NCBI GenBank assembly: GCA_035998445.1 | Contig: DASYHQ010000020.1 | Location: 1-62,712, forward strand | Direction of reading: 5' to 3' | Source of the DNA: Tepidisphaeraceae bacterium | GTDB taxonomy: Bacteria > Planctomycetota > Phycisphaerae > Tepidisphaerales > Tepidisphaeraceae | DNA: 62,712 bases | Shown here: positions 5,825 through 56,792 of the stretch, one piece after another | Layout of the letters: every line of letters starts with the position of its first letter | Numbering within the stretch: position 1 is the stretch's first letter | The notes under the pieces: generated by a model | Seen by the model: only the letters and a program-made list of their open reading frames with translations | What the model was told of the DNA's origin: nothing | Databases searched by the model: none | Made by a program: the position numbers and the translations under genes

Positions 5825-5866
5825 CTCGGCAGGTAGGACTCGAACCTACAACGAGCCAGCTAACAC
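5825..5866 (-). other. 3' fragment of tRNA-Asn(GTT), probable attachment scar
   Basis: Read on the minus strand, a T-arm with a perfect 5-bp stem and TTCGAGT loop (GTAGG / CCTAC, 5849-5833) is followed by a 7-nt acceptor 3' strand CTGCCGA and G. Upstream of it are a 5-nt variable loop and an anticodon loop GTGTTAG, which reads anticodon GTT with U33 and A37. The 5' side breaks off here: the opposite anticodon stem is imperfect, and no D-arm or matching TCGGCAG acceptor strand follows. This is the expected product when a tyrosine recombinase integrates into the 3' half of a tRNA gene. The flank on the left would be original chromosome and the element would extend to the right. The intact tRNA is not in the window. 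Confidence 0.62.
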
Positions 5867-6218
5867 CGGGCACGGGCAGATTCGGGTTTCGTAACCGCCG
5901 GATGCGAGATCACAGGGACAGAGGACAGTCGTGATCCAAGTTCAGTAAAAAAAGCTCATCGAAGCCAAGATGATGCGCGATCCCTTGTCGAAGGGAACCT
6001 CCCTTAGAAGTGAAAGACCACAGAGGGCAACGTGTATGCGCCGTGATGCCCTAAGCAGGCGAACGGCTCTCCCCTTCACTGCTGCCCGCATCACTCATGG
6101 AACTTCCGTCTGCCGGTGCCCGTTCGCCGGCCGTTTCACTCGCTGACTTGCGAGGGATCACCAGTCGTCACTGCAGCACGCGAGTGTTAACATACGAACG
6201 CAACCTGACCGGCGTTCC

Positions 6219-6234
6219 TGTGCGAAATTGCACA
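6219..6234. repeat. TGTGCA-N4-TGCACA palindrome, copy 1 (one mismatch)
   Basis: TGTGCG AAAT TGCACA. The left half-site differs at one base from the consensus shared by the other copies. It is the outermost member of the set at the left end of element A. Confidence 0.65.
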
Positions 6235-6594
6235 GCTGACGCGTATAGTCCCTCAATGGACCGAAGTCAGGAAATCAACGTGCAGTCACAATGACTCGCC
6301 AACTCGTGTGTATCACTGGTCTTATGACAGTTAGCCCTCTCGACGCCATTTTGGCGAAGAGATCGCCCTGCCAATGTGGCAATTGTCGACCATTACGAGA
6401 CTTACGGCGACGCATACCAAGTCGCGGCGTAAAGGGCACGGGTCGCGCGTGATGTCGACGGATCGGTTACCTCGCTGCTGCTCGTTTCTGAGCACCCGAT
6501 TGCATGCGTGCGGGCCGCGGATTGGCCTAAACGGGCTCGCTTCGTCCGGACCCGGACATCCCGCGTGGGCACGGCCGGACCCCTTGCTTTACCC

Positions 6595-6638
6595 TGTGCA
6601 TAAATGCACACCCCCACCTGTGCAAGTTTGCACAGGTG
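6595..6638. repeat. Two adjacent TGTGCA-N4-TGCACA palindromes
   Basis: Perfect copies at 6595-6610 (spacer TAAA) and 6619-6634 (spacer AGTT), with starts 24 bp apart. The second extends to 10-bp perfect arms, CACCTGTGCA and TGCACAGGTG (6615-6638). A dimeric DNA-binding protein site or origin iteron is the natural reading. Confidence 0.75.
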
Positions 6639-7280
6639 AGATCCGAACGCCGCTTGGTGCCTTGTTACACGCGGTTGAAGCCGCGCGGGTAGCCGTGGCC
6701 ATAGAAGCGCTTCGGGCTCACGGCGGAAGGGCTTCGACCGTTGGCTTGCGCTCGTTGACCACACCGGCCGCTCGCATCTTCGCGCGGGCGCCAACGCCGA
6801 TCATTCACAACTCACCTAGATGCGCGCCAGGCAGAGGTCCGATTGTCGCCTACGGGGTTGAGTTCCGGTGATGGCCAGGGTCATCGCGCCGGCGCGCACT
6901 CGCCGGTTCGGGGGTCGTTGCTCCCGATCAAAGCAACGGCATTTAGGTAAGCAGATGGGCGATCACCCGAGACGGATGCAGAGGGGCGCAGGTACGTCCT
7001 CGGGCTAATCAAATAAGGGTTCGGCACGAGCGGAACGCAGTGGAACGGATCCAGTACGGCCGTTAAGATGGCGGTCGCGAGGCCGCCGGCGTGCGTGGCC
7101 GGATCGCCGAGGCATCATCGCGTCCCTCCGCGACCACGGTCTCCGCGCGAAGGTGGTCCGCCTCCTGATCCCGCGGGTCGGGCGACGTTCTGGGGCGTGG
7201 AGCGCGTGTACGCTACGCGCGGGATGGCCTGCTCGGATTTGAGCACCCCTGCCCGCTCAATTCTGAGCACCGTATGCAGC

Positions 7281-7310
7281 TGTGCACGCACGCTTGTGCA
7301 TTCTTGCACA
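7281..7310. repeat. TGTGCA-N4-TGCACA palindrome plus an extra half-site
   Basis: A perfect copy at 7295-7310 (spacer TTCT), with an additional TGTGCA half-site at 7281-7286. It lies 168 bp from the 3' end of the primase-like gene. Confidence 0.7.
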
Positions 7311-7477
7311 CACCGTCACCCAGCCGTCGCCGTGCAAGCCGTTTGTTCTCACCTCAGTCGGCGGCGTCAGTCGAGCTGGATTCGTCGCCCGGCGACCTCG
7401 GTGTGCGTACAGTCTCCTTCTTTCTCGACCCAACCCCGTGGCTGGCGCGTAAGACGGTTGGACGTGAGATCGCACGT

Positions 7478-9541
7478 TCATCCGTTGGGCACTAATTCTA
7501 GTTTCAAGTGGCCGCTCGGTGGCTCCGGCCTGCCCAACGGCCACGGGTCCCCACCGTTCGTCCATGGGCCGGCGACGGTCTCGGGAGGCCGGCAGGTCGC
7601 TCCGGGACCCCATACAGTTTGTGAATAGAGAACGCTGTGGGCGGGAGCCACGGCTTCGCCCAAGGCCAGGGGCAGTTCGACGGCGCCGACCGCGTAACGG
7701 CGGCAATACCCCTCGCCCACTTTCGACCCGTCGTCCTCGAACGCACCGGAATTATAGGACCGGCTTGTGCACGTCATCGCGCCGAGGTGCATCAGCAGCC
7801 GGATCGCGTCGGCGACCGCGCGGCCGCTCGTCCGACACCTGAGCGACCGCAGCATGCCCCGGAAACCGGCCGTCGGTATCGGCGTCCCGGCGTGAATTTG
7901 GCGACCGCCGAACCCGGTAGCCTCCAGTGTGGCCGCCTGGGCCTGCTGACGCGCCCGCACGACCTCGGGGATGGCCCCCGACTGCCACAGGGCCTGGTTC
8001 TTCCGCGCGGTGAGGAACACGACCGCCGTCCCGCGGTACGTCGACGTCCCGAGGTCGGCGGGCCGCACCCCGCGCCCTTTCAACTGCTCGATTACTATCT
8101 TGATGTCCGCCTCCGTGAACCAAGTCGGTGCCCCCAAGCCGTTGGTCGCCTCCAGTTTAGCGCGGCGGACCGCCAGGTACCGTTGGACGTCGAACGCGAC
8201 GACGGCGGACGCTCCGTCGCGGAAGTTCAAGAACCTCACCTCTGCGCGGCGGCCCGCGTTGCGGAGCCGGGCGCGACGCTTGGCGTCACACGGTCGTCCC
8301 TCGCCAACGTGCTCGTCGTACAGCCGCTCGGCGAGTTCCTCGGCGTACCGGCCGCCGGTCGCCCGGAGGACGGCGAACACGATTCCGTTCGCCTGCTGGA
8401 CCTTGTCTCCACTGCGAACCATCTCGGCGATCCGCGGGGTGAAGACGCCGCTCGTCCCGCCCGCCGTTCCGCGACCGGTCCCGAACTCGTCCGCGTCGTC
8501 CAGGGCGGCGAGCCGCCGGATCTCTGCCATCCGTTCACCCCATGCCTGCTGGGACGTACTTCGGGCAGGCACGACGGCTCGGGACTGGCCGCCCGTCAGT
8601 AACTCGGTGAGGTCGCCTACCGTTAATGGAGCTGAGCGTTCAAACCAATCGGCGCACGCTCGGAGGCGGCCGCGTGCGACGGACGAGGGTTCGTCGGGTC
8701 GGTGGCAGCACGGGGCGAGCACCGTCGCGTGGTGGCCGACGCGTGGCGCCGTACGGCACTCGAGTCTTTCGCACCGGTGAAACCCTTCGTCGCCGTACCG
8801 GTGGGCGTAGACGTCATAGTGATTCGCGCGGGTGTCGACGTACGCGTGGTCATTGTCGGCCCGGTAGAGGTATGACAGTTCGGGCGGCACGCGGCGGCCG
8901 TCGGTCGGCCACGGCCGGGTCCGCACCCGTTCGGCGGCGTAGGCGGGGTCGTAAAGGGGGTTATCGACCGTCGCCTCGCGAACGCCAGCGAACGCCTCGA
9001 CGACCGGGCTGTCGCCGAATCCCTGTGTACACCTCGCCACGATGGACTCGCCGATCCCCCGGAGCCACGCCGCTCGCTCGGCGACGCGCAGGTGCGAGGC
9101 GTCGACCAAGAGGTACAAGCTGGCGCCTGTGCTACGCGACGGGCAGACGAACCCGCGCCCGCCGAGCACCTCGCGGTTGACGCGGTGGGCGTACGCGACC
9201 GCGCGGTCGGCGCTCGACGCACGTTTGTCGTCGACGTCGAGGCGGTGGAGCGTGACCGCCCCGCCGTCCCGGCTAACGAGGAGCAACACGCGTCGGCTGG
9301 TGGCGTGGGCCGCGAACGACTTGAACGTGAACGTCCGCGGGAAGCGGCGTCCGTCGCGGACTATGGGACGGGGGTCATCGTACGTGTTCTGCCGGTACGG
9401 GCCGTCGCCGGACGGGGTGGCCTGCCAGATGTCCTCGACGTCCACGATCGCGCGGAGCGCTTTCCACAGGCGACGGAGGTCACGCTGGGTGCCCGGGCCG
9501 AAGACGGGTTGGTCGAGGATCTCGGGAGGCTGCACGAACAC
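7478..9541 (-). CDS. Primase-like protein (divergent AEP motifs), element A
   Basis: 687 residues, paralogous to the 28.7-31.1 kb gene along most of its length. After an N-terminal helical segment (DLRRLWKALRAIVDV) come a strand with acidic pair LDVDDKR (D102, D104) and then PSRSTGASLYLLVD (residues 134-147). This order resembles motif I (DxD) and motif II (S-x-x-G-x-x-H) of archaeo-eukaryotic primases, with Ser141 where the histidine is expected. The middle contains C..C/H residues (FHRCERLECRT, APCCHRP) that could bind zinc. The C-terminal part is shared with B (STYRGTAVVFLTARKNQALW, TSRSYNSGAFEDDGSKVGEGYCRRY). The likely role is replication initiation or priming for the element. The start is GTG at 9541, with no clear ribosome-binding site. 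The family assignment is an inference. Confidence 0.6.
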   Translation of the reverse strand: MFVQPPEILDQPVFGPGTQRDLRRLWKALRAIVDVEDIWQATPSGDGPYRQNTYDDPRPIVRDGRRFPRTFTFKSFAAHATSRRVLLLVSRDGGAVTLHRLDVDDKRASSADRAVAYAHRVNREVLGGRGFVCPSRSTGASLYLLVDASHLRVAERAAWLRGIGESIVARCTQGFGDSPVVEAFAGVREATVDNPLYDPAYAAERVRTRPWPTDGRRVPPELSYLYRADNDHAYVDTRANHYDVYAHRYGDEGFHRCERLECRTAPRVGHHATVLAPCCHRPDEPSSVARGRLRACADWFERSAPLTVGDLTELLTGGQSRAVVPARSTSQQAWGERMAEIRRLAALDDADEFGTGRGTAGGTSGVFTPRIAEMVRSGDKVQQANGIVFAVLRATGGRYAEELAERLYDEHVGEGRPCDAKRRARLRNAGRRAEVRFLNFRDGASAVVAFDVQRYLAVRRAKLEATNGLGAPTWFTEADIKIVIEQLKGRGVRPADLGTSTYRGTAVVFLTARKNQALWQSGAIPEVVRARQQAQAATLEATGFGGRQIHAGTPIPTAGFRGMLRSLRCRTSGRAVADAIRLLMHLGAMTCTSRSYNSGAFEDDGSKVGEGYCRRYAVGAVELPLALGEAVAPAHSVLYSQTVWGPGATCRPPETVAGPWTNGGDPWPLGRPEPPSGHLKLELVPNG

Positions 9542-10483: not shown

Positions 10484-10547
10484 AAAAACCGCGTTGGGGC
10501 GGCATATTTTGGCGAACGTCTCGGTCGTCCCCGCGCGCCGCGACTGC

Positions 10548-10560
10548 TAGAATTGTGGGA
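10548..10560 (+). promoter_or_regulatory. Extended -10 promoter, predicted leaderless start of kinase-HD
   Basis: TG-C-TAGAAT (TGn at 10545-10547, hexamer 10548-10553) ends exactly 6 nt before the ATG at 10560, which places the expected transcription start on the A of the start codon. No good -35 is visible, as is normal for extended -10 promoters, and no Shine-Dalgarno sequence fits. Confidence 0.6.
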
Positions 10561-12884
10561 TGGCTAAACGCCCCGCTCGCCGGCAAACTTCGACGCCTAC
10601 GCTTCCTCTTTCTGGGAGCTTCCCTCACTATCTCTCCGCGATCGCCAGGGATCTGAGTCGCCGCTACGCGTTCGGGGGTGAGGCCGGGCGAGGAAAGACG
10701 GGCGCGGCTTATAAAATCGTCGACGTGCACACGGATCGCCCTTTCTGCCTCAAAACTTGTTCGCCCGACGTGACGGACGCCGCCGGGCGGGAGCAAGTGC
10801 GTGAGACGCTCTCCACCGAAGTGAAAATCCTGCGGCCGTTGAGCCATCGCTGCCTGCCGGCCATTTACGATGCCCAACTCAAAGCCGAGTTGCCTTATTA
10901 CGTTTGCACGTACCACCCCGGCGTGACGTTCAAACGATTCAGGCTCGAAGGTCGGAAGCTTCCACTGCGTGAGTCGACGTCCGCGATCTGGTCGCTCTTG
11001 GACGTGATGAAGTACCTCCACAATCAGGATCGGCAGCACTGTGACCTTCATTCCGAGAACGTCATGATCAGCCCTGAGGTGTTCCGGGACGGCATTATGG
11101 TGATCGACTTCTCTTCCGGCCACCGCGGTAGTGACAGCTCGCCCGACACGTTCAACCGGGGTAATTTCGCATTCAAGCCAGTTTCCGACCAGCCGCAGGC
11201 GGGACGAAGGGTCACCCGCAAGGTGACGCAGTTCGAGCAGTACGATTTCGCGGGCCTCGGCATGCTGCTGGCTCAGATGAAGGACTCCTTCTTCGCCGGC
11301 GCATCGCGCCAATCTCAGTCCGCCTACGTCGACTTTTGCGGAGCCCTCCGAAATGGCGATATCAACACATGGGACGCAATTGAGGACCGCTTTCTGACGG
11401 TGCTAGACCCGTATCGTATATGGACGGGCAATGCCGATCTCTTTACCTCCGCCGACGGCGGTCCACAGGCAATTTCGCTGCCGGCCGGCGTCGGCGTGGC
11501 CGTGGGCGTGGCCCCGCTGGCCGTTGTAAACACGTCCGCGTTCCAGCGGCTTCGGGGTATTCGCCAACTGTCGTTTTGCGAGTGGTTCTTCCCGGGCGCG
11601 AGCCACACGCGGTTCGAACACTCCCTCGGTGTGTTCGGCCGGGCGAAGTCGGCAATCGAATCGCTCGTGCACGACCGCGCCTTCCGCGACCTGCGTAGCG
11701 TCGCCCAGATCCGCGGCTTTCTACTTGCAGCGCTCGTTCACGACGTCGGTCATTACCCGTTCGGCCACCTCGTGGAACAGTACGCGGCCAGCCGCCTGTG
11801 GAAGTCCGCCGCCGCGAAGGAGGCCGCGTCTCACAGCCGCCACTCGCTGTGGCTTATGGATAACGACGAGGAATTACGGACGGCAATCGACGAGCACTGG
11901 GGACCGGAAGCGAGACTGAACGCCCGGCGGACGTTGACCAAGCAGGTGCCCGTTCTTTCCGAACTCCTCGACGGCCCGATCGACATCGATAAGGTGGACT
12001 ATCTCGCCCGCGACGCGGTCCACTGCGGCGTGCCGTTCGGCGCCGGCCTCGACGTCTCCGGACTGCACCGCGCCCTACGCGTGGTCCACGGCGGCCACCG
12101 ACTCGGGATTGAGTCCGCTGGGGTGCCGGCGGCCGAGGGCCTAATGGTGTTGCAAGATCAGATGTTGTCGTCCGTTTACTGGCACCCCACGATCCGCGGC
12201 CTCATATGCATGTTTCATGGCGTGTTGGCCAATTTGGTTAGCAAGGACGAAGCGCTGTTCAACGGGCTGGTCGAGGAACTGAAGCGGTGTACGAGTGAGG
12301 ACGATGCGATCCGAAGCGTGTTACGCCCCCGTGTGGACATGCTGCCGAAAAAGAAACGCGAATCGGTCCAACGGCTCCTCAGCCCGCTGGTCCGCCTCAA
12401 ATTTTCGGATATCTACGTCCCAACTGTCACGTACGCGCCGACGGATCCCCCGCCGGAGCACCTGCCGTCGGACAACGCGTACCGGTCGATCGTCAAGGAT
12501 TTCACGCATACCGAGTCCACCGCTGCCGAGCCGGTTAACTGGCATAACGTACGTCGACTCCGCACGGCCTACATCGCCGCGCTGATCGAGATGGGCCAGC
12601 CCGCTGACGACCTCCACGTCGTCATCGACGTCCCGTATGGCAAGTCGTCGCGGCAGAACTTGATCGTGTACAGTGACCGGACCGGGGTCGAGAAAGACAT
12701 CACGGACATCTCCCATCTAAAGGAGACAATCTTCACCATGCCCGCGACGTTTCTCTCTCCCGTCCGCGTCTATCTCGCCCCGGAAATGCACGCCCCGGTG
12801 TCCGAGCGAATCTCTCGATTGCGCCAGCGCGCGGAGGAAATCTTCTACGAACGACGCCCGCTAAACGATCACGCCGACGAGTAG
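10560..12884 (+). CDS. Protein kinase-HD phosphohydrolase fusion protein
   Basis: 774 residues. Residues about 35-290 form a eukaryotic-like protein kinase: a Gly-rich region FGGEAGRGKTGAAYKI, the VAIK-type lysine in FCLKTC, the catalytic loop HCDLHSENVMI (Asp161 and Asn166 region) and a DFG-equivalent VIDFSSG (Asp183). Residues about 310-620 are an HD phosphohydrolase of the COG1078/SAMHD1-dGTPase type: FQRLRGIRQLSF, HTRFEHSLGVFG (His near 350), ALVHDVGHYPFGH (HD pair near 394) and DIDKVDYLARDAVHCG (Asp near 478). The last 150 residues are of unknown fold. Separate family knowledge says SAMHD1-like enzymes hydrolyse dNTPs and dGTPases can protect against phage. The fused kinase could sense infection or regulate the HD domain. 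It is cytoplasmic, cargo of element A, and absent from B. Confidence 0.88.
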   Translation: MAKRPARRQTSTPTLPLSGSFPHYLSAIARDLSRRYAFGGEAGRGKTGAAYKIVDVHTDRPFCLKTCSPDVTDAAGREQVRETLSTEVKILRPLSHRCLPAIYDAQLKAELPYYVCTYHPGVTFKRFRLEGRKLPLRESTSAIWSLLDVMKYLHNQDRQHCDLHSENVMISPEVFRDGIMVIDFSSGHRGSDSSPDTFNRGNFAFKPVSDQPQAGRRVTRKVTQFEQYDFAGLGMLLAQMKDSFFAGASRQSQSAYVDFCGALRNGDINTWDAIEDRFLTVLDPYRIWTGNADLFTSADGGPQAISLPAGVGVAVGVAPLAVVNTSAFQRLRGIRQLSFCEWFFPGASHTRFEHSLGVFGRAKSAIESLVHDRAFRDLRSVAQIRGFLLAALVHDVGHYPFGHLVEQYAASRLWKSAAAKEAASHSRHSLWLMDNDEELRTAIDEHWGPEARLNARRTLTKQVPVLSELLDGPIDIDKVDYLARDAVHCGVPFGAGLDVSGLHRALRVVHGGHRLGIESAGVPAAEGLMVLQDQMLSSVYWHPTIRGLICMFHGVLANLVSKDEALFNGLVEELKRCTSEDDAIRSVLRPRVDMLPKKKRESVQRLLSPLVRLKFSDIYVPTVTYAPTDPPPEHLPSDNAYRSIVKDFTHTESTAAEPVNWHNVRRLRTAYIAALIEMGQPADDLHVVIDVPYGKSSRQNLIVYSDRTGVEKDITDISHLKETIFTMPATFLSPVRVYLAPEMHAPVSERISRLRQRAEEIFYERRPLNDHADE

Positions 12885-13322
12885 CGTGTTGATGACGTGG
12901 TCGAGTGGCGCAGCCGGGGGACATGGACCGTCCATGACTACGGTCACGCCGCGAACGTGGTCGTCCGGGACCAATTCCCGGCCGGGCGAAACGTAAGCCT
13001 TAGCAAGGTTGACTCTTAGTTGTAGCAAGGCACCGGCAACGCTTAAGTGAAAACATGTAACGTACGTTCCCCGGCTCTACCCATCGTCACGCCATGACGG
13101 CCCTGCTAAATCGGTGCGCTATTCCTCGGCACGAACCGTCGAATTGGCGACGAGGTCGTGCCTTTCTGCCCGCACCCGTATCACGCCCCACGGACGTAAA
13201 AGATCCACGTCCATCGTGAGGTGCCCCTACCCCCACCTGCCCGAGTCCGTGCGAGATGTGCTGTGCGGTGCAACCTCAGGAATGCACCCCGCCCGTTGCC
13301 AGCGACAAAGGTCATCTAGAGA

Positions 13323-13360: not shown

Positions 13361-13413
13361 GCTAACTGTCTCGAACAATCGTGATTTACCGCCAGCAATA
13401 GACGTGTCGATTC

Positions 13414-14700
13414 CTACGCAAGCACTTCAGGGCCAACGTAGGTGTTGGTTTCGATAGCCTTTGCCAATTTCGGCGCTTCGTGAATCAGATGGAGCACCAT
13501 GCCGTCTCCCCATTCCTGAGCGAGCATTCTCAACTGCTCGGTCGCTTCATTGATCGTGTCGCAAACTTCCGTTTCGTGGCCGCCCGTCTCGGGGTCTGGC
13601 TGGTTCGCCACGTCGCACTGCACATGCGAGATGATTCGCCCATCCGCGGTCTCGCCGAGGTATCCCCGCTTGTAAGCGATCGTCTTCCGATGAGCCATCG
13701 GCATCCGGACCACGCCGAGGAGCACTGGCTCACGCGCGCCCTTGCCGTTGTCCGCATAGAGGACCATTCCCTCGTGCACGTCCGCCGGTCTCAAGTTGGC
13801 GAACTCTTCATCCGACGCTGCCCACCAGTCTATCGGACGTCCAGAATGAGTGGCTTTGCTGCCGCGTCGTTCGCCGCACTTGCGGAACGCCTCTCCTGTT
13901 ATTCGGGCGAGATGACGCTCGTCTCGCCGCGGCCACCGCTCGCCGTCACCGGCGATCGTGTCGCGAACGACCATCGCCCAGCAATATTTCGCAGCGTCTC
14001 CTACCGGCGTGTGCGCCACAGCAACCCCGTCCGCCACGAGCCCGCGCTTGTAAAGTTCGGTGGACAACCGATGCAGCGCCACCCATACGATGTTCTCCAT
14101 ACCCCATTGCAGGTCGCGACCTCGGTCGTGAGTTACTCCCCCGAACAATGCCAACGTGCAGCCGGGAGCCGTTAGGCCGGCCAGCGATGGGACATCTGCG
14201 CGCCTCCTCGCGAGCCGGCCCGCATCGCTCACGCTCAGCTGCACGTCGGTCCGCTGCTCGTGGCCAAGCATTGCGAGTTCCGCGACCGCCGCGCGGATCG
14301 AATCGGTTTTCGCCGTGGCGGACACCGCGAAACGGACCGCCGGCGACGACGTTTTTGCCGACGTGACGTCCTCGGCAATTGCAACCTGCATGGCAAGCTG
14401 CTTGGCGACGTCATCGCCTTGCCCGAGAAATCCCCGCATCGTCAACCCGCCCAAAAGCGCGGCAAGCGAATCCGCGATCATCACTCCGAGTTCGGTTCCG
14501 ATCCGCGCGAGGTACCGGCCGTCGACGGCCTTTCCTAACACGACCGGAAGATGAAACGCCGACTCATCGGCGGACCAGTAAACGGCCGCAAGCTCTCGCT
14601 CGACCGTGATGACCTCCTCTTTCGACGCGGCGTTGAACGGGGCGCCCAGCGATGACGCGACTAGGCGTTCGCCGGGGAAAAATTGATCGGAAGTGCTCAT
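13414..14700 (-). CDS. Element core protein X, copy A (unknown function)
   Basis: 428 residues, the same length as its paralog at 38507-39793, and alignable along its whole length. The ATG at 14700 follows GGAGAATTGAC. No known domain is recognised. Conserved blocks shared by both copies include ITVERELAAVYWSAD, GKAVDGRYLARI, MVVRDT followed later by DERHLAR, MPMAHRK(T/A)IAYKRGYLGETADG, and a C-terminal GDGM.LHLIHEAPKLA..IET.TYVGPEV. The composition is that of a soluble cytoplasmic protein. Its promoter is shared in design with gene XII, which suggests co-regulation. Conservation in both elements despite different cargo suggests a core element function, not cargo. Confidence 0.75.
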   Translation of the reverse strand: MSTSDQFFPGERLVASSLGAPFNAASKEEVITVERELAAVYWSADESAFHLPVVLGKAVDGRYLARIGTELGVMIADSLAALLGGLTMRGFLGQGDDVAKQLAMQVAIAEDVTSAKTSSPAVRFAVSATAKTDSIRAAVAELAMLGHEQRTDVQLSVSDAGRLARRRADVPSLAGLTAPGCTLALFGGVTHDRGRDLQWGMENIVWVALHRLSTELYKRGLVADGVAVAHTPVGDAAKYCWAMVVRDTIAGDGERWPRRDERHLARITGEAFRKCGERRGSKATHSGRPIDWWAASDEEFANLRPADVHEGMVLYADNGKGAREPVLLGVVRMPMAHRKTIAYKRGYLGETADGRIISHVQCDVANQPDPETGGHETEVCDTINEATEQLRMLAQEWGDGMVLHLIHEAPKLAKAIETNTYVGPEVLA

Positions 14701-18011: not shown

Positions 18012-18496
18012 TGTCAGTCGCAGGCCCGGGTACGGCAAGGACGACATCACATCGGACGCTATTTTTCGCCGAGTACGCTGTCCCTACTACCGCCGCGCGG
18101 CCACGGTCTAGGACGGACGGTGGTAGCGGTCGCTCGGACCGAAGTCGCCAAACGTGCAAACGATTGGCGTTGCAGAGATCGAGAGCGGGACCGCAGGCGT
18201 CGACCGGTCGGCGCAGCGAATGTCCGGTACAAGGGCACCGGTCGACCTCGGGATGGAACGCGGAATAGTCCTGCCGCTGATGTCGTCGCAAGCCTGGAGA
18301 GACCGGATGGCACGATAGGTGTAACGCCCACATCGAGGAAGTGATCGAAGCATTCGGGGTGGCCCCAGCGGATGCAAGGACGAGCCGATAATTCGCCGGT
18401 GATCCGGTGGACGTCGGTTGCAAGATGGATATGGTATTCATGTGATCCGCCTAAAAGCTCTGCCGGCTCACAGTCGCGGCGGAGTTCTAGAATTTG

Positions 18497-19880: not shown

Positions 19881-19907
19881 CTGCTCACCTCGAAAACGCA
19901 GGAACAA

Positions 19908-48999: not shown

Positions 49000-50928
49000 T
49001 TAGACGAAAAAAGGTTTGGGTGCCTTTTCAAACTTCCGGTACTGCCCCAGTATGCCGGTGTTTGGGATGATCTCGTGCGGCTTCTCAACCCAGTTCTCGC
49101 CCTGCCGCTCGAACCTCACGCGCACGTCGAACAGATCACACCGCTGCACTTCCGTGCGGATGCTGCCTTGCGTCTTCGTCTCGATGACTTGATAGCTTTT
49201 TCGTCCTGTGGCGTCGTAACCGATGTTCTCCGCGAGGGCCATGAACACCGGCTCAGCGTCGTTGACCTTTTCATGAGACGCCCGCTTGCGGACGAAGATC
49301 ACGCTTGCCTTCACCGCGGCACCGTAGTGCGCGAAAGCGGTCTGCGGAATGCTGACAACTGAGAGAAGCTGGAACCGCTCGAAAAGGAAATCCCTGACGT
49401 ACTGAAGCGATGCGTTGGTGAGGATGCCTTCCGGCAGAACGATGGCTGCGCGGCCGGTCCCTGGCTTGAGGAATTGCCAGATGCGCTCGAGAAAGAGAAT
49501 CTCGGTCTTCTGCGCTTTCCGAGGTTTCTTATTCCCCTTGGCGTCCAGCTGATTCCCAAGCTCATAGTCGGAAAGGTATGGTCGTTCGGTTTGCGTGATC
49601 GTCGCGCCGAACGGTGGATTGGTTAGGATCAGGTCGAACCGATCGGCTTTGAACCCATGGTTCCGCGCGTAGAGATGGTCCATCCGCTCAAGCGCGTCAC
49701 TCCCAACGACGTTCGTGTGACCGTCGTCGTGAATGATCATGTTCATTTTCGCCACGCGTGCGATTTCATCGTTGATCTCAATTCCGAAGAGGTTTTTCTG
49801 GGCGAAGTCGTGCCAGTGTCGATAGTGCTCTTCGCTCCCCTCCTCGTGATACTCGCTCGCTTCGCGCCGGACGGAATTGAGGGCATGAAGCAGGAAGCCG
49901 CCCGATCCGCACGAGGGATCTAACACGAGGTCGGTGTTTGTCGGCTCCAGCATCTGCACGGCAAAGTCGATGACCTCGCGCGGCGTGAAATATTGGCCAA
50001 AATCGCCCTTGAAAAATCCGTCCATGAACTGCTCGAAGGCTAGTCCTTTAGTGTCTAGGTCAGTCTTGCTGAGATTGATGCCTTCCAAGTGCGACACGAT
50101 CGTTCGCAGCGTCGCGTCATCAATCTTGATGCTTTCGGTAAACACCTCGGGATCGCGCTCCTTCTGCGTCTCGTAAAGAGCGCGGATGCGATCGGACAAT
50201 CGGCGGCTCGATTCGTACGTTTTGATTTGAAACTCGTAGGCGTCGCCCTTCTTCCGCTTCGCCTGCTCGTCGCTGATTTTCACGAAGATGATCTTACACA
50301 ACTCCCCGAACGCGGAAGGCGGCGACAAGCGTCCTCCTCCCCACAATGTCTGATGACATTTGCGGATCGCCGCGATCAACTCCTCTTTATTGACAATCTG
50401 GATGTCGGTTGGCCCGCCCTTGAGATACTTGAACTCCTCCGGCCGGCCGTACTGAACGGGCAGGTCAGCGATGATGTTCTCTTCGCGTTCGAGCACACCG
50501 TAGCGGCCGGAGAAATCGAACGCACGGCGGGTCGCACCTGCGACGACCATGACGAAGTCGGCGCGGAACTTGGCCCACGTTCCGTTTCCACAGGCCTGTT
50601 CGACGGCCTGATTGAACTCGGCATCCGAGATGCCGTCACGTTTGCATTCGATGACGGCGAAGGGTCGCTTGCGTGCGTCGTCGCGGAAGACAACTAGGTC
50701 GGCACGGTCTGAGGGGGTACGGTCCGCTACAACGACTTCGACGCCGATCCGAGCCGGTTCATATCCGTAGCGATAGACCAATTCAGCCCAAAACTCGGCG
50801 CGTACGCGCTCCTCTGCATCGGAGAATTTCTCGGTCCAATTGACCGTGAGGTAGGTGATTTTCTCGCTCTTACCTTCGCCGCTGATGCGTAGAAGCCCGT
50901 CGTTCACAGCCCGTTCCAGATAGCTCAT
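49000..50928 (-). CDS. BcgI-like fused restriction-methylase (RM) subunit
   Basis: 642 residues from the ATG at 50928 (GGGAGAAGGC upstream). The N-terminal domain has a PD-(D/E)xK-type arrangement: SDRADLVVF (Asp77) and FAVIECKRDG (Glu94, Lys96), as in HsdR_N-type nucleases. The central and C-terminal part is an N6-adenine methyltransferase: LDPSCGSGGF (motif I, near 336), ILTNPPFGA (motif IV, near 436), then FKGDFGQYFTPREV upstream of both. No separate HsdR translocase gene is present, so this is not a classic type I system. One nuclease-methylase chain plus an S subunit is the composition of type IIB enzymes such as BcgI, which cut on both sides of a bipartite site. It is cargo of B. Confidence 0.85.
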   Translation of the reverse strand: MSYLERAVNDGLLRISGEGKSEKITYLTVNWTEKFSDAEERVRAEFWAELVYRYGYEPARIGVEVVVADRTPSDRADLVVFRDDARKRPFAVIECKRDGISDAEFNQAVEQACGNGTWAKFRADFVMVVAGATRRAFDFSGRYGVLEREENIIADLPVQYGRPEEFKYLKGGPTDIQIVNKEELIAAIRKCHQTLWGGGRLSPPSAFGELCKIIFVKISDEQAKRKKGDAYEFQIKTYESSRRLSDRIRALYETQKERDPEVFTESIKIDDATLRTIVSHLEGINLSKTDLDTKGLAFEQFMDGFFKGDFGQYFTPREVIDFAVQMLEPTNTDLVLDPSCGSGGFLLHALNSVRREASEYHEEGSEEHYRHWHDFAQKNLFGIEINDEIARVAKMNMIIHDDGHTNVVGSDALERMDHLYARNHGFKADRFDLILTNPPFGATITQTERPYLSDYELGNQLDAKGNKKPRKAQKTEILFLERIWQFLKPGTGRAAIVLPEGILTNASLQYVRDFLFERFQLLSVVSIPQTAFAHYGAAVKASVIFVRKRASHEKVNDAEPVFMALAENIGYDATGRKSYQVIETKTQGSIRTEVQRCDLFDVRVRFERQGENWVEKPHEIIPNTGILGQYRKFEKAPKPFFV

Positions 50929-51553: not shown

Positions 51554-51733
51554 TTAGGCGACCGATAGGAGGTCGCGGGTGGCTTCGGTGTTCATGAACT
51601 GCGCGATCGCGTGGCCGCGGATCTGCGATGACCTGCTGTCGGAGTGGCCGAGCCGGCGAGCGGCTTCCGCGGCGGACGTGCCTTCCAGGTAGATCATCAC
51701 CGACCTATGGCGCCGGCGGTTGCCGCCCATCAT
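51554..51733 (-). CDS. 59-residue ORF coupled to the integrase
   Basis: Starts MMGGNRRRHRSVMIYLEGTS and contains AAEAARRLGHSDSRSSQIRG. Its ATG (51733) overlaps the integrase stop (51730-51732), implying coupled translation. The AARRLGHSD string looks like a helix-turn-helix or the region before the catalytic tyrosine of XerC/D-like enzymes. A small DNA-binding excision factor is possible. There is no counterpart left in element A. Confidence 0.5.
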   Translation of the reverse strand: MMGGNRRRHRSVMIYLEGTSAAEAARRLGHSDSRSSQIRGHAIAQFMNTEATRDLLSVA

Positions 51734-53097
51734 CCAAGTTCGGCCGCGATGGCCCGCGCCGTAGCCACGTCCGCCTCGGCGTAGTCCAGCGTCTGGTCGA
51801 CCGTCCGGTGGCCCAGCAGGACCCGCGCCGCCTCCAGCCCCTTTTCCCGGCGGATCGCCGTCGCGTGTAGGTGCCGCAGTTGGTGCGGGTGCCAGTACTG
51901 CGCGACGGCGAGCGTGCCCGCCACAGTTGCTGCTCGCATCGCGTAACGCAGCGCCCGATGATAGCTCCGCGAGTTATAGCGACCGCTGCCCGCTGGCGAC
52001 CCGGCCCGACGGGTTGGGCAGGTCTTCGGATGCCCGCACTCGCCATCGCTCGCAGACTTGTCGCTCAGCCGCCGCTCGGCCATCGCTTGTGCTGGTGAGA
52101 ACACCCACGCCTGCGGGTCGTGGGGCCGCAGGAACGGGCCGAGGACAGCCCGGCCCCGCGGGCCGATACACACGACGCGGCGTTGCCCGCGGTACGCCGT
52201 CTTGTGCGTCGCAGGGGCGTAAAGCCACACCGCCGCCGCAGCTCCGCCGCCGCGATCGACGTCGGCCGTTCGCAGGGCGCACAACTCGCCCGACCGCATC
52301 CCGGTCAGCCGCTGCAGCCGGACCATCGCCCGCAGCGTCGGCGGCAGGTACGGCAGGACCGCCTCGACGTGTGCGTCGGGGACCGGCCTCACCGGCGCCG
52401 TCTCCCGCGCGCCCGAGCGGCCGCGCCGCAGCGGCTCGACCGCCGCCAGGGCCGTCAGCACGCTCGGCGCGACGAGCTGCTCCGACACCGCCCAGCGGAA
52501 AGCCCGCTTAACGCAGGCGACCCGCTGGTTCACGACGTTGCGGCACAGGTCGTCGGCAACCAGCGCAGCACGCACCGCGCGTAGGGCAAGCGGGCCGAAC
52601 GCCGCCGCCGCCGTCTGCCCGTATAGCGCGCACAGCGCCTTCGCACCGGCCTCCAGCGGTCCCAGCCCCGCGCTCGCCCGCCCCGTCGCCGCGTCGACGT
52701 AGTACGTGCGGGCCCACCGCAGGTACGCCGCCGCAAGCGACGCCACCGTGAACACATCCCCTGCGGCAGAAGCCCGTGATGACTGGGGCAGTTGGCCGGT
52801 GGCGAGCCACTCGCCGAGCGTGCAGCGATATCGCTCGTGGCTCACGGGCGAGTTGGCTCGCCCGAGATAGACCATGCGCCCCGCCAGCCGCACGTACCCG
52901 AGGTTCTTCGCCCGGTGCACGCGGTAGGCCGGGACAGATGCCGAGGTGGCACGTGCTCGAACGCGCCCCTCTGCCGATCGGCGGACCGGTATCGCATCGT
53001 CGTTTCGGAACGCCCGGTGGGTCGCGGGAGTACCGCTCGCCACATCGGAACCCGGGGGGACGGCGGACGGCAAAGGTGGGTGCGGCTGGGCGAACAT
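51730..53097 (-). CDS. Tyrosine recombinase (integrase), element B
   Basis: 455 residues. The ATG at 53097 is preceded by GGAGGACGAGACG. The N-terminal arm-binding part (YRVHRAKNLGYVRLAGRMVY) is shared with the fragment in A. It is followed by a SAM-like core-binding domain (FGPLALRAVRAALVADDLCR). The catalytic domain has R in LTGMRSGELCALR (near 266), K in the beta-hairpin (THKTAY), HQLRHLHAT (H-x-x-R, near 404), LLGHRTV (second H, near 430) and Tyr in TLDYAE (near 439). All catalytic residues are present. The last 200 residues include an unusual insert with CGHPKTC. It is the terminal gene of the RadA operon and presumably integrates element B. Confidence 0.93.
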   Translation of the reverse strand: MFAQPHPPLPSAVPPGSDVASGTPATHRAFRNDDAIPVRRSAEGRVRARATSASVPAYRVHRAKNLGYVRLAGRMVYLGRANSPVSHERYRCTLGEWLATGQLPQSSRASAAGDVFTVASLAAAYLRWARTYYVDAATGRASAGLGPLEAGAKALCALYGQTAAAAFGPLALRAVRAALVADDLCRNVVNQRVACVKRAFRWAVSEQLVAPSVLTALAAVEPLRRGRSGARETAPVRPVPDAHVEAVLPYLPPTLRAMVRLQRLTGMRSGELCALRTADVDRGGGAAAAVWLYAPATHKTAYRGQRRVVCIGPRGRAVLGPFLRPHDPQAWVFSPAQAMAERRLSDKSASDGECGHPKTCPTRRAGSPAGSGRYNSRSYHRALRYAMRAATVAGTLAVAQYWHPHQLRHLHATAIRREKGLEAARVLLGHRTVDQTLDYAEADVATARAIAAELG

Positions 53098-53137: not shown

Positions 53138-53881
53138 TTATTTCACGTACAGGCGGTCCTCGGCGACCGTCAGCGTCGCGCCGTCGGGCAGGTCCCCGGT
53201 CTCGGCAACGTACCGCTGGAACGGCTGACGCATCAGGCGCGTCGTCAATCGCGCATCGTCACGGAATCGGCGGTGCCAACGGGCGAGCTCCCCCGCCGCC
53301 ACTCCCTCGGCCTCGACGGTCACGCGAAGCGCGTCGCGCAGGTGTCGCTCGCACCACGCCCGCGCCGCTGGCTCGTCGACGACGTCGAGCGTCGGCGGGC
53401 GTCGCCGCAGGCCGACCGTGCCAGCCGGCAGTGCCACGGACCGGGCCCCGCCGCCGCCCCGCCGCCGCAGCTCGTCGCGCAGCCAGGCCTCTAGCTGCGG
53501 GCCGAACTGTCCCATCAGCCACCGCTCGTCCCGCTCGGCACGACGCAGCTCACGGTGTGCCCACGCCTCAACGCGCTGCGCGTGGGCGCGGGCCTCGACG
53601 ATGCGGCGGACGACCCAGGAGGCCGTCGCCTCGTCGCAGACGCAGAATCCGTCGGCGAACTGCGTTGTCACGCCGAGCTCGTCCTCGTCGCTACCCCCGC
53701 CGCTGCCGTCATCCTCCGCAGCAGTACTGCGGTCTCGGCCACCCCCCTGCCGCTCTGCTGGTGGTGCCTTCCACCGGTCGGCCACGGCCCCCGTCCCTTG
53801 GAGGTGACCAATGGCCGAGGCGTCGTCGTCCGCTTCGACGACGTGGCTTTCACCGCGATGTTGGCTACTTTTCTTCATCAT
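53138..53881 (-). CDS. Mu Gam-like host-nuclease-inhibitor family protein, copy B
   Basis: 247 residues. The start is the ATG at 53881 (MMKKSS), which overlaps the stop of gene v by 4 nt. The longer open frame upstream belongs to other genes. An acidic Ser/Gly-rich N-terminus of about 70 residues leads to the conserved coiled coil (ATASWVVRRIVEARAHAQRV, ELRRAERDERWLMGQFGPQL) and the Gam-type hairpin LPAGTVGLRRRPPTLDVVDE. A final domain (FQRYVAETGDLPDGATLTV) matches copy A. The order and overlaps are the same in both elements. It is likely to bind linear duplex ends and block host exonucleases. Confidence 0.72.
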   Translation of the reverse strand: MMKKSSQHRGESHVVEADDDASAIGHLQGTGAVADRWKAPPAERQGGGRDRSTAAEDDGSGGGSDEDELGVTTQFADGFCVCDEATASWVVRRIVEARAHAQRVEAWAHRELRRAERDERWLMGQFGPQLEAWLRDELRRRGGGGARSVALPAGTVGLRRRPPTLDVVDEPAARAWCERHLRDALRVTVEAEGVAAGELARWHRRFRDDARLTTRLMRQPFQRYVAETGDLPDGATLTVAEDRLYVK

Positions 53882-54138
53882 CTGGATCTCCTGACCGCCT
53901 CGACGCAGGTCAAGGCCAGTGCAAGTAACTCCCGCTGGATCCGCCGCACGTCCGCGTGCCGCGGGCAGGCCGCGTCGATCAATCCGTACAATTGCGTGGC
54001 CCGCTCCATCAAGTAGGAGGCCAGCAGATGCTCGTCCCGTTCCAGCTGACGCAGGGCACGCTGAGCGCCGCCGCGTCGGCGTCGAACCTGCCAGTCGCAA
54101 CGACGGATGGTCCGAGCGGTGATCGTTCGTCTGGCCAT
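53878..54138 (-). CDS. Small conserved operon protein v, copy B
   Basis: 86 residues from the ATG at 54138. Basic N-terminus, then LLASYLMERATQLYGLIDAA, CPRHADVRRIQRELLALALT and C-terminal EAVRRSR, aligned with copy A. No known family. It overlaps Gam by 4 nt, as in A. Confidence 0.7.
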   Translation of the reverse strand: MARRTITARTIRRCDWQVRRRRGGAQRALRQLERDEHLLASYLMERATQLYGLIDAACPRHADVRRIQRELLALALTCVEAVRRSR

Positions 54139-54221: not shown

Positions 54222-54644
54222 TCATGGTGCGTTCGGCGGCGCATCGCTGCTGCCGTCGTTGAAGTCCCGGTTCGGGCGGTCGCCGCCGCGGGGCCGTTTC
54301 GACTGTGAGGGTGTGAGGCGGCCTGCCTGCTCAGGGTCCAGCCGGGCAAGGAGCGCGCCGAGCTCCGTGTCGCGCCAGAGCTCGTAGTGGGCCGTCCGGT
54401 ACGCGTCCAGCGCCAGCAGCACCGCCTCCCACACCGCCCGGTGCGCCGCGTCGTGCACCTCCGACGGCAGGTCCTCGACGCTGCCCAGCGCGTTGGCCGC
54501 GTACCGGCAGACCGCGTAGTACAGGTCCGGCTCGGCGCGGCGCACCTGCTGGATGCCGATCTGATGGCCGTCCCGCGCCAGCCGGGCCCGCGCGGCGTCG
54601 ATGATCGGCTCGCTGATCAGGTGCCCGTCATCCTTCGGCATCAT
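54222..54644 (-). CDS. Small conserved operon protein iv, copy B
   Basis: 140 residues (start 54644 or the adjacent ATG 54641). It shares PIIDAARARLAR, VRRAEPDLYYAV, HRAVWEAVLLALDAYRTAHY and LWRDTELGALLARLDPEQAG with copy A, and has a longer hydrophilic tail. Unknown function. 52 bp after RadA and 83 bp before gene v. Confidence 0.7.
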   Translation of the reverse strand: MMPKDDGHLISEPIIDAARARLARDGHQIGIQQVRRAEPDLYYAVCRYAANALGSVEDLPSEVHDAAHRAVWEAVLLALDAYRTAHYELWRDTELGALLARLDPEQAGRLTPSQSKRPRGGDRPNRDFNDGSSDAPPNAP

Positions 54645-54696: not shown

Positions 54697-56040
54697 CTAC
54701 GTGCCGATCAGCAGTGCTATCCCGGCCGCGTCGAGGTCGGGCCACACCCACGCCACCGCGTCGGCGACGGTTTCGACGCCGCTCAGCTCGCAGCCGCAGT
54801 TCCACGGCAGGAACCGCCGATCGTCCGCCGGCACTAGCAGCCGCATGGCGGCCAGCTCACCCGCCCGCATCGCCGCCGTCGCCGCGGTGATCGCCGCGCC
54901 TGGCAACGACCGCACGCGCCCCGCGAGGTCGACCTCACCGATCGCGACCAGGTCGCTCGGCACCGTGCGGCACAGGGTCGCCGCGGCGATCGACAGGCAC
55001 AGCGGCACGTGCAAGAGGCTCGCGTATCCGCCTGAAGACGATCGAGCGCCAAGCAACGGATCGTCGCGATCGCTCAAGGGCCTGCACGCGATCGACAAAT
55101 CCAGCTCGCCGGCGACCGCCGCCATGCCCGGGAGGCTGCCGAGGCAGTGCAGCGCGTACTGCACCTCGGCGCGGGCAATCCCACGGCAGGCGAGCAGGCG
55201 GCCGGCGGCACGCCCCGACGGCGGGGCGAGCGCCGCGGCAGTTTGGACCTCGACGCCGCCGACGTGCGGCAGCCACGCGCGGGCAGTGGCCACGTGGCGT
55301 CCCGCAGCCCCGCCGGCGGGCCGCGCCGGCATCAGGCGCGTCGTCGCCGGGTCGATCGCCAGCGGGACCGGTTGGAGGACGGCCGGGCCGAAGCGGTTCT
55401 TGCTGACGGTGAGCGTGCGCCGCCCGCCGCGGCGGTTCAGGTGCAGGACGACGTCGACCGCGTGCTCGAGCGTCCGCGGGCCGCGGATCGCGTTCTGCTT
55501 CGTCACGTGGCCGACCAGGAGCGTGGCGATGCCGGCGGACTGAAGAAGCCGCGCGGCGTCCAAGGCCGCCCGGCAGGCCCGCGCGTCGGACCCGCCCGCG
55601 CCGGTCGTGCCCTGGATGCTGTCAAGCACGACAAACTTGACTCCAGCGTGCGCGGCATCGGTGGCGACCACGTGCCGCGCGACGTACGTCGGCAGGTGGG
55701 CCGGATCATTAGGCGTCGCGAGCAGTGCGAGGTTTTTGAGGCAGCGTGCCACGTCCACCTTCGTACGGCCCGTCATCATGCGCTCGGCACGCGCGCGGAC
55801 GCGAGAAACGTGCTCTTCGCTCAGCAGGATTAGGGACTTTTCATCGCGAGCCGCAAGGTCCAAGGCGGTTTGCAGGGCCAGGCCGGTCTTGCGGCTGCCG
55901 GGTGGTCCGACGAGTAGTGAGATGCCAACGCATCTCCCAGACGAATGGTGAGGCCACGCCAATGGAAACTGAGCATTAATTCCGACGCTTAGCGTCGAAT
56001 CGGAGCGGGCTGGAAAAGTCGAAATCGAATGAGCAACCAT
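54697..56040 (-). CDS. RadA/Sms-like ATPase without zinc finger, copy B
   Basis: 447 residues. Walker A variant GPPGSRKTG, Walker B VKFVVLDSIQG, GHVTKQNAIRGPRTLEHAVD, the hallmark KNRFGP, and a RadA/Lon-like C-terminal domain (VPLCLSIAAATLCRTVPSDL, GEVDLAGRVRSLPG). No N-terminal zinc finger is present, as in A. The serine-arginine in place of the usual glycine-rich loop residues (GSRK) is shared between copies and may mark this subfamily. It heads the operon ending in the integrase, with the start codon at the predicted transcription start. Confidence 0.85.
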   Translation of the reverse strand: MVAHSISTFPARSDSTLSVGINAQFPLAWPHHSSGRCVGISLLVGPPGSRKTGLALQTALDLAARDEKSLILLSEEHVSRVRARAERMMTGRTKVDVARCLKNLALLATPNDPAHLPTYVARHVVATDAAHAGVKFVVLDSIQGTTGAGGSDARACRAALDAARLLQSAGIATLLVGHVTKQNAIRGPRTLEHAVDVVLHLNRRGGRRTLTVSKNRFGPAVLQPVPLAIDPATTRLMPARPAGGAAGRHVATARAWLPHVGGVEVQTAAALAPPSGRAAGRLLACRGIARAEVQYALHCLGSLPGMAAVAGELDLSIACRPLSDRDDPLLGARSSSGGYASLLHVPLCLSIAAATLCRTVPSDLVAIGEVDLAGRVRSLPGAAITAATAAMRAGELAAMRLLVPADDRRFLPWNCGCELSGVETVADAVAWVWPDLDAAGIALLIGT

Positions 56041-56046: not shown

Positions 56047-56074
56047 ATAATAATATCCTTTACGACAATGTCAA
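56047..56074 (-). promoter_or_regulatory. RadA-operon promoter (B), predicted leaderless
   Basis: Minus strand: -35 TTGACA (56074-56069, consensus), 16-bp spacer, -10 TATTAT (56052-56047), then exactly 6 nt to the ATG at 56040. The block GTCAAGTTTAAAA (plus strand, 56070-56082) is shared with A. Confidence 0.75.
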
Positions 56075-56102
56075 GTTTAAAAATTAACTATAGCGATAAA
56101 GC

Positions 56103-56131
56103 TTGCTCGCTGGTTGTATTGATCGTCTAAT
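56103..56131 (+). promoter_or_regulatory. RHH gene promoter (B), predicted leaderless
   Basis: TTGCTC (56103-56108), 17-bp spacer, TCTAAT (56126-56131), exactly 6 nt to the GTG at 56138. No ribosome-binding site. Confidence 0.65.
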
Positions 56132-56137
56132 CTTGTT

Positions 56138-56422
56138 GTGCCGAGACGCAAGCAGACCATCAGTTTTTCTATTGATCCGTTGCTGGCCGATCGCTTTCGA
56201 GAAGCGACAACCGCTTATTTTGGGAAACTCGGCCTTTGTTTTTCAGCATGCATGTTGATGTGGCTAGAAGCAGATCCTGAAACGCAGGCCAAGTACCTCA
56301 AACGTGTGTTCGGTGCCGAGGTCGACGAGGAGTTGCTGGAGCTAATCGAACAGGCGAAGGCAGAACAACTGAAGCGAATCAAATCTCGGGAAGATGTCTC
56401 CAAGCCCAAGCGCGGCTCTTAA
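56138..56422 (+). CDS. Ribbon-helix-helix-like regulator, copy B
   Basis: 94 residues from GTG 56138, the same length as copy A. QTISFSIDPLLADRFREATT is a typical RHH strand and first helix, and GKLGLCFSACMLMWLEADPE is almost unchanged from A. The C-terminus (ELLELIEQAKAEQLKRIKS) is charged and helical. It is divergent from the RadA operon with 97 bp between starts, and likely represses both promoters. Confidence 0.73.
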   Translation: MPRRKQTISFSIDPLLADRFREATTAYFGKLGLCFSACMLMWLEADPETQAKYLKRVFGAEVDEELLELIEQAKAEQLKRIKSREDVSKPKRGS

Positions 56423-56437
56423 GCCTTCTAACGACTC

Positions 56438-56448
56438 TGTACAGTACA
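56438..56448. repeat. TGTAC-A-GTACA palindrome at the right end of B
   Basis: A perfect 11-bp palindrome followed by CG, 16 bp after the RHH stop; counterpart of 23030. Confidence 0.6.
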
Positions 56449-56792
56449 CGTTCTCACATAAGGCGCTCTCTCTTCACGGTGCCCCGCAACTTGTACATGC
56501 GCCCGCATCCTCCGACACCTGATTGCCATTGACCTTCGATGTGCTCGGGCGCCGACCCCCTTCGGGGGAAGACGGTGGTCGCGCCCCGCATCGGTGCTGC
56601 ACCCGTTTCAGGGGTCGAGGAGACCATTGTATTACGCAGTGCCTATCGCTCCCGCAACGCCAATGACAGCGGTCCTGGTGGTCAGCCACGGCTGAGGCCA
56701 ATTAGCCGCATTGGGTGTGACTGCCTGCTTTGCCCGTCGGGAGCGAGAGGCAATGATCGCCGGTCTCGCTGTGAGGGATGCACCCCAAAGAT
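56449..56792. other. Right junction of element B with chromosome
   Basis: 344 bp without a gene. Contains a short GC hairpin (CCCCC TTC GGGGG, 56556-56568) followed by GAAGACGGTGG, which also occurs (GTAGACGGTGG) at the matching place after element A near 23160. The boundary of B is probably within this stretch. Confidence 0.5.

Follow-up and report, generated by a model that had tools for sequence, protein, structure and literature searches.

The window analysed here, i.e. the whole stretch of 62,712 nucleotides (contig C20, positions 1-62712), comes from a 5.84-Mb draft genome in 64 contigs, the host of which we take for a Phycisphaerae-class planctomycete. It contains two regions that lie next to each other in the same orientation, A at approximately 7.1-23.2 kb and B at approximately 28.2-56.6 kb, separated by unshared genes at 23.2-27.0 kb. 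Script-based gene calls, followed by an all-against-all comparison with blastp and tblastn, yielded nine full-length gene pairs (Table 1). Ten shared genes had been listed in a preliminary description of this DNA; the tenth, the integrase, is whole in B only and is reduced in A to a stump of 132 aa. Amino acid identities are 44% for the primase-like protein, 71% for X, 35% for XI, 42-43% for XII, 50-54% for the Gam-like protein, 45-47% for iv, 52-53% for v, 55% for the RadA-like ATPase, and about 66-67% (66% over 94 aa) for the RHH-like small protein. Third codon positions are the most divergent in all nine pairs, so these are genes that evolve as proteins. X precedes XI and XII in A and follows them in B, and the two regions carry different cargo.

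The label "primase" found no support in sequence searches against Pfam, PHROGs, NCBIfam, or PDB, the last of which returned only four chance-level matches (E ≥ 0.83). A DxD-like stretch can be seen by eye, no AEP profile was matched, and the primase-like protein of B had no match in phage or plasmid records. Structure models of the primase-like protein (pLDDT 35) and of X (pLDDT 33) were set aside. X, the family of which is unknown, is the least diverged pair (third-position difference 0.34, followed by v with 0.41), and its 75% nucleotide match extends about 0.2 kb past the gene on both sides. Combined with its changed place relative to XI-XII, this extension indicates that X behaves as a unit of its own. 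Several cargo genes resemble defence genes; for example, the kinase-HD protein of A matches PD-T4-6 kinase models with a best E value of 1.1e-18.

Table 1. Coordinates of the features in the window and of the end sites of element C
Feature	Position	Strand	Remarks
Intergenic repeat copy, about 245 bp	5581..5825	+	Dispersed; flank, not element-specific
tRNA-Asn 3' half and trailer	5811..5871	-	61 nt, 92% to C23 gene; adjoins dispersed repeat
31-bp site, left border of A	7130..7160	-	Strict pattern and matrix
Primase-like, A	7478..9541	-	No Pfam match
Kinase + HD cargo, A	10560..12884	+	Defence-like; PD-T4-6/mad6-type kinase models
31-bp site between units of A	12934..12964	-	Matrix search
Gene X, A	13414..14700	-	Conserved unit about 13247-14961
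Gene XI, A	15284..16117	+	Pairs with XI of B
Gene XII, A	16778..17947	+	Pairs with XII of B
31-bp site left of recombination module, A	18097..18127	-	Matrix search
180-aa ORF, A	18497..19039	-	PF08411, exonuclease I C-terminal domain only
Integrase stump, A	19509..19907	-	No catalytic domain
Gam-like, A	19908..20537	-	PF07352 E 3.8e-5, 24.1 bits (cut-off 28.3)
Small protein iv, A	20534..20800	-	Pairs with iv of B
Protein v, A	20866..21237	-	Pairs with v of B
RadA-like ATPase, A	21307..22632	-	Lon-like C-terminal domain
RHH-like small protein, A	22718..23002	+	Fold by inspection only; no Pfam match
31-bp site, right end of A	23145..23175	+	Homology with B and C stops about here
31-bp site, outer left of B	27051..27081	-	Matrix search
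31-bp site, left border of B	28248..28278	-	Strict pattern and matrix
Primase-like, B	28688..31000	-	No Pfam match
Cargo, B, unknown	31968..33488	+	Called gene
31-bp site in B	33758..33788	-	Strict pattern and matrix
Gene XI, B	34372..35136	+	Pairs with XI of A
Gene XII, B	35496..36551	+	Pairs with XII of A
31-bp site in B	36643..36673	-	Strict pattern and matrix
Gene X, B	38507..39793	-	Conserved unit about 38320-40051
IS110-family transposase, B	41721..42767	+	Pfam and NCBIfam
31-bp site in B	43293..43323	-	Strict pattern and matrix
DnaJ-domain cargo, B	44391..45224	+	Element C holds a similar DnaJ-domain gene
Type I specificity subunit cargo, B	47594..48976	-	mad5-like, under NCBIfam cut-off
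N6 DNA methyltransferase cargo, B	49000..50928	-	mad2-like, under NCBIfam cut-off
Tyrosine integrase, B	51730..53097	-	455 aa; catalytic residues conserved with C8 copy
Gam-like, B	53138..53881	-	PHROG 2205 at 9e-4; no Pfam match alone at E 0.01
Small protein iv, B	53878..54138	-	Pairs with iv of A
Protein v, B	54222..54644	-	Pairs with v of A
RadA-like ATPase, B	54697..56040	-	Pairs with RadA-like of A
RHH-like small protein, B	56138..56422	+	Pairs with RHH-like of A
31-bp site, right end of B	56552..56582	+	Homology with C stops 14 bp beyond
31-bp site, element C	C8: 2312	-	End site, inverted relative to the other
31-bp site, element C	C8: 18037	+	End site, inverted relative to the other

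The recombination module and its relatives

The genes for the integrase, the Gam-like protein, iv, v, the RadA-like ATPase, and the RHH-like protein form a recombination module. Among 40 window ORFs there is a single Pfam match to Phage_integrase, and the module integrase is the sole tyrosine recombinase found in A and B. Residues 22-131 of the B protein are matched in A at 19518-19853. Without its integrase, A would depend for any movement on B or on the third copy, C, described below. The integrases of B and C keep the residues R-K-H-R-H-Y, which we take to be the tyrosine recombinase catalytic motif. The Gam identity follows from PF07352, which is matched by four of the five Gam-like family members (best 2.1e-12), and that of RadA from a match to PDB 5lkm (RadA) at 2.3e-27. 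Alignment inspection revealed that the N-terminal zinc finger is absent from the RadA-like clade. The 180-aa ORF of A was taken for a probable exonuclease I fragment. A PHROGs search with ten core ORFs returned only integrase, Gam, DnaB-like helicase, families of unknown function, and a "transcriptional repressor", the last being a weak match of the RHH-like protein (E 0.049). In viral contigs, the RadA-like, primase-like, X, Gam-like, and XII proteins had no relatives.

Element C lies on contig C8 at approximately 2312-18067, and its module (13488-18081) has the order Int-Gam-iv-v-RadA-RHH. Nucleotide identity of this module is 66% to B, and 61% over the part shared with A. The left part of C contains genes resembling those of B at 43570-45224. 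The primase-like gene, X, XI, and XII are absent from 40 kb around the C8 copy and from the examined stretches of G005 and G008, two genomes of the host's own family; the ten genes therefore do not behave as one set.

A profile built from five RadA-like proteins was applied to 396 other genomes of the class, sampled evenly from a larger group. Members of the clade were matched at E ≤ 5.8e-115, and the next best matches (3.1e-38 or weaker) were taken for housekeeping RadA. The RadA-like gene was found in 6 of the 396 genomes and at L073, a locus in a planctomycete MAG from Lac Pavin. A large serine recombinase is present at all seven of these loci, and a Gam-like gene, a tyrosine integrase, and a tRNA gene within the examined stretch are each present at five. 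Gam is missing from G163 and from G104, the contig of which stops past RadA. Of the five tyrosine integrases, four are located no more than 0.6 kb from a tRNA gene. In G008, 22 of 25 positions of the tRNA-Ser 3' end are repeated directly 18.4 kb away, which is an ordinary island signature. The best direct ungapped tRNA repeat scores were 16 in G008, 14 in L135 (not at the tRNA 3' end), and 11 in L133, and the same search reported none in L134 and G005. The recurrent core is a recombinase together with Mu-Gam-like and RadA-like genes. Hence, the earlier expectation that the core genes would co-occur near tRNA genes held for RadA-like and recombinase genes, mostly with Gam, and failed for the primase-like gene and X, each of which is present in one of 397 class genomes, the window's own, and in none of the other 396.

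Neighbourhoods were inspected at 18 of 35 loci (L068 being G005 and L069 being G008), and L076 and L097 had no usable gene calls. L070, L071, L072, and L074, which hold distant RadA-like relatives, showed no Gam-like or recombinase profile match and were left out of the family. The first three adjoin proteins whose HNH matches are weak and do not reach the cut-off; a type I restriction gene is a further neighbour of L072, and L074 adjoins a helicase.

The 31-bp paired-arm site

Repeats shared by A and B, as claimed in the preliminary description, are real. They take the form of a 31-bp near-palindrome, GCGACCMCCTTC-N7-GACSGTGGTCGC, with a 12-bp arm, a variable 7-bp centre, and a second 12-bp arm. 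The 12 copies in A, B, and C (10 in the window and 2 on C8) are the new feature of this study. The strict pattern has 9 matches in 5.84 Mb, of which 7 have the site's 13-base spacing and all 7 lie in the elements; the backward control gave 0. Within the window there are 6 strict matches vs. a shuffle mean of 0.01. A palindrome search blind to the motif recovered an 8-member cluster at the 12-7-12 geometry, and the largest cluster in three shuffles had 4 members. A matrix was built from the seven strict copies; the five sites outside this training set score 18-29, and the highest score in 225 kb taken from elsewhere in the genome is 12.4. Three looser sites with a variant right arm (scores 21-32) were detected, one on C24 and two on C63, where the pair is in direct orientation, 7.0 kb apart, around UvrD_C-like and DUF6036 genes. 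With up to 3 mismatches allowed, the genome search returned 39 matches, among which some places were matched on either strand, vs. 9 in the backward control, so the weakest of the 39 are chance matches.

All 10 window sites fall outside script-called genes (chance about 6e-6). The left and internal sites are on the minus strand in 9 of 9 cases and the right-end sites of A, B, and C on the plus strand in 3 of 3, which gives each element imperfect inverted repeats at its two ends. Homology between the copies ends no more than 14 bp from the outer edge of the right-end site, and 7130 (-), 28248 (-), and 2312 (-) would be the true left ends. The sites divide A into blocks with the primase-like and kinase-HD genes, with X, XI, and XII, and with the module. 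From left to right, the blocks of B are a 1.2-kb block without a called gene, the primase-like gene with cargo, XI with XII, X with other genes and IS110, and the cargo that includes the methyltransferase and specificity subunit together with the module. The arms are conserved, the centre is variable, and by eye the flanks have no sequence in common. Core sites of tyrosine recombinases consist of paired arms around a short centre. The 31-bp sites fit such core sites in their geometry, intergenic place, and uniform polarity, and in that homology stops at the right-end site. Centres differ within one element, and at matching places of A, B, and C they are partly similar by eye, which argues for old positions and not for recent shuffling.

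No such sites were found in the examined stretches of the Gam-RadA relatives (best score 12.8), where a serine recombinase is used. Relatives of the integrase at E ≤ 1e-40 occur in 149 of 397 class genomes, including the host. At 10 related-integrase loci of other genomes and 2 further loci of the host genome, no comparable site array was detected; the largest palindrome clusters there, with 5 members in L166 and 4 in L164, are GC-rich or evenly 108-bp-spaced stretches.

Comparison with known element classes

Pfam was scanned with 40 window ORFs (31 of them within 7.1-56.6 kb) at E 0.1 or E 0.001, a set that excludes some small ORFs and the RadA-like, iv, v, and RHH-like genes of B. Relaxase and type IV secretion genes, as expected of an ICE or IME, are absent among these ORFs, as are capsid, portal, terminase, and packaging genes of prophages or phage satellites, also in PHROGs searches with the ten core ORFs. 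This agrees with the earlier statement that capsid, conjugation, and relaxase genes are missing. The module shares PF07352 with Mu Gam and homology with housekeeping RadA (Sms). However, its RadA-like protein forms a separate clade without the N-terminal zinc finger and phage structural genes were not found. In this comparison, phage and plasmid records gave partial matches only (26 and 93), none covering 80%.

Integrons are platforms of a tyrosine recombinase with serial gene cassettes that are parted by short imperfect palindromes and share one orientation. The islands likewise have a tyrosine recombinase and serial units parted by palindromes in one orientation, but the integrase is under the NCBIfam cut-off, the units measure 1.2-13 kb, and the sites are 31 bp. 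Against the integron integrase model TIGR02249, the B protein was not listed at E 0.01 and the C8 protein reached 17 bits vs. a cut-off of 265. Rfam had no match in the window at gathering scores, whether or not it includes an attC model. Genomic islands that integrate at tRNA genes possess a tyrosine integrase and direct repeats of the tRNA 3' end at both ends. Similar features occur in the module's relatives, in the form of the tyrosine integrases near tRNA genes and the tRNA direct repeat described above. In the host, by contrast, a tRNA-Asn fragment lies left of A and C only, ARAGORN found no tRNA gene in the window, and the sole tRNA in the first 40 kb of C8 is tRNA-Arg at 28.1 kb.

According to their description, SEs are integrative, carry tyrosine recombinases, and have imperfect inverted end repeats around a 6-bp spacer; their core is intA-tfp-intB-srap with two catalytic recombinases, and their synteny blocks are from Gammaproteobacteria and not from other taxa (PMC10214605). 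The islands share with SEs the tyrosine recombinase and the imperfect inverted end repeats around a short spacer. They differ in that one integrase with Gam-like and RadA-like proteins takes the place of a two-recombinase core, every border carries a complete arm-7-arm site, and further sites lie in the interior. The two-recombinase operon of SE/GInt elements was not encountered among the 40 window ORFs, which have one Phage_integrase match. No matching element was found in the portions of the literature at hand, and the islands look like an undescribed kind of mobile island.

Origin and proposed mobility of the islands

A and B are real islands, specific to their lineage and partly decayed, that combine a recurrent recombination module with an array of sites particular to the elements. 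The three module copies, the recurrence with recombinases in relatives, and the sites between blocks and at the right end are best read as integrative islands of this lineage that are made up of exchangeable units, some of them related to defence. That A, B, and C form a diverged family of integrative islands in which the integrase of a core module exchanges islands or units at the 31-bp sites has, in our view, an even chance of being correct; recombination at the sites is inferred from the sequence. The core parts would be a tyrosine integrase, a Mu-Gam/Ku-like DNA-end binder, a RadA-like branch-migration ATPase, two small proteins, and the RHH-like protein. The integrase would bind the 12-bp arms and exchange strands within the 7-bp centre, and whole islands as well as single units (defence genes, primase-like, X, XI-XII) could be gained or lost at the sites. 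Gam may shield the free ends of excised or incoming DNA, and RadA may drive strand exchange or branch migration with a resident copy; nothing was found that links either protein to such a site exchange reaction. The mutually inverted end sites of C count against this island model, since simple recombination between them would give inversion and not excision.

If the sites are true recombination sites, the lineage can collect multi-gene defence units by a route distinct from integrons, ICEs, and phage satellites, and recombinase plus Gam plus RadA would be a new recombination module that occurs with either a tyrosine or a serine recombinase. A more far-reaching version, a non-integron cassette system in which the integrase with Gam-like and RadA-like helpers swaps multi-gene, partly defence-related units at lox-like 31-bp sites in a Phycisphaerae lineage, is speculative and rather unlikely. 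Under a conservative reading too, the mobile set of RadA-like, Gam, and recombinase genes can serve as a marker for planctomycete islands.

A serious alternative, although a doubtful one, is that the sites are bound by the RHH-like or another element protein and serve as operators, centromeres, or replication sites; A, B, and C would then be plasmid-like elements that have integrated, and the integrase would act elsewhere, e.g. at the 3' end of tRNA-Asn. This alternative draws its weight from the differences between the centres, the inversion of C's end sites, and the absence of comparable arrays near related integrases elsewhere. The dyad of half-sites would suit a dimeric binder. In all three copies, the distance from the end of the RHH-like gene to the right-end site is 128-143 bp, and relatives of the module adjoin tRNA genes. 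A genome search with the tRNA-Asn gene gave partial copies with trailer at two places only, one left of A and a weaker one (80%, 60 nt) left of C, 35 bp from C's first site. The remaining matches of the tRNA-Asn search were the intact C23 gene, C41 (83%) and C52, both taken for other tRNA genes, and two bits of the 245-bp repeat. The fragments suggest past integration at tRNA-Asn, and the one left of A is possibly an old attachment remnant; no second copy turned up beyond the opposite end of A/B or of C. On the other hand, the sites are kilobases apart in gene gaps, several of them between convergent genes, and are not clustered; Pfam revealed no ParA or initiator family among the 40 window ORFs; and C has two sites yet no primase-like gene.

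It is quite improbable that the exchangeable islands proposed here are instead ordinary, decayed, immobile genomic islands with transcription terminators or insulators at gene ends as their "sites". The truncated appearance of the A integrase and the exonuclease-like gene, the IS110 transposase inside B, and the location of the sites in gaps between genes would suit such decay. However, the strict site with its spacing occurs nowhere else in 5.84 Mb (three looser sites on C63 and C24 aside), no T run is visible by eye on either side of the sites, and the integrases of B and C look intact.

The earlier view of A and B as two diverged, related elements was upheld. That they arose by an old tandem duplication of one element in this chromosome and not by separate acquisition is very improbable. 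Adjacency and the same orientation would fit such a duplication, as would a tree of 13 RadA-like proteins that joins A, B, and C in one clade (100/100) but does not settle the branching order among them. However, 23 of 26 sliding windows place B nearer to C, on another contig, than to A (in 20 of the 26, B-C ranks first among the three pairs), the RHH-like proteins of B and C are 94% identical vs. 67% for A, and cargo and gene order differ between A and B. Gam protein identities (A-C 66%, B-C 61%, A-B 54%) hinted at an exchange between A and C in this gene, but the nucleotide windows did not, and the idea was abandoned.

Position 5825, formerly regarded as the element start, is the edge of a repeat of about 245 bp that occurs at 19 places of the genome, three of them partial. 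Counted by eye, 15 of the 17 copies that lie outside A and C have as their nearest right-hand neighbour a gene that runs towards the repeat, the exceptions being C36:21919 and C48:13683. The repeat was therefore rejected as an element end and treated as intergenic sequence dispersed through the genome. The short open frame in it was also dropped, as the start or frame is lost in several copies.

Dispersed GTTAAC repeat and a multi-copy recombinase element

An intergenic repeat of approximately 245–280 bp, which contains a strong GTTAAC inverted repeat, is dispersed over 19 places in the genome, three of them partial. The gene to its right points towards the repeat in 15 of the 17 copies that lie outside islands A and C, and the sequence may be a 3' end that has been repeated, or a terminator element. 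One copy directly adjoins the tRNA-Asn gene.

At the left contig edge lies a further multi-copy element, in which a DUF2924 protein is encoded together with a serine recombinase of the large type. Additional copies, with identities of up to 94%, are present on C23, C31, C36, and other contigs.

Features and their coordinates (C numbers, contigs of the same genome)
Feature	Position	Other copies
Dispersed repeat	window 5581-5825	C36, C25, C23, C53, C3, C31, C8, C24, C38, C32, C13, C49, C10, C48
Serine recombinase/DUF2924 element	window 1-1146	
7.0-kb block (L141)	C63:21518-28548	
Locus with long open frame (L143)	C24:40886-52999	

31-bp sites outside the islands

Two of the near-palindromic 31-bp sites known from islands A, B, and C flank, in direct orientation, the block on C63, the contents of which include a UvrD_C-like gene and a DUF6036 gene; no integrase was found among the five of its genes that were scanned. 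On C24, a long open frame of at least 4038 codons begins 0.3 kb past such a site and runs to the end of the stretch examined.

Distant RadA-like relatives

A distant branch of the RadA-like ATPase family is represented by three loci (L070, L071, and L072) in non-planctomycete MAGs. The RadA-like gene is adjoined by a weak HNH match in each, and also by a type I restriction gene in L072.
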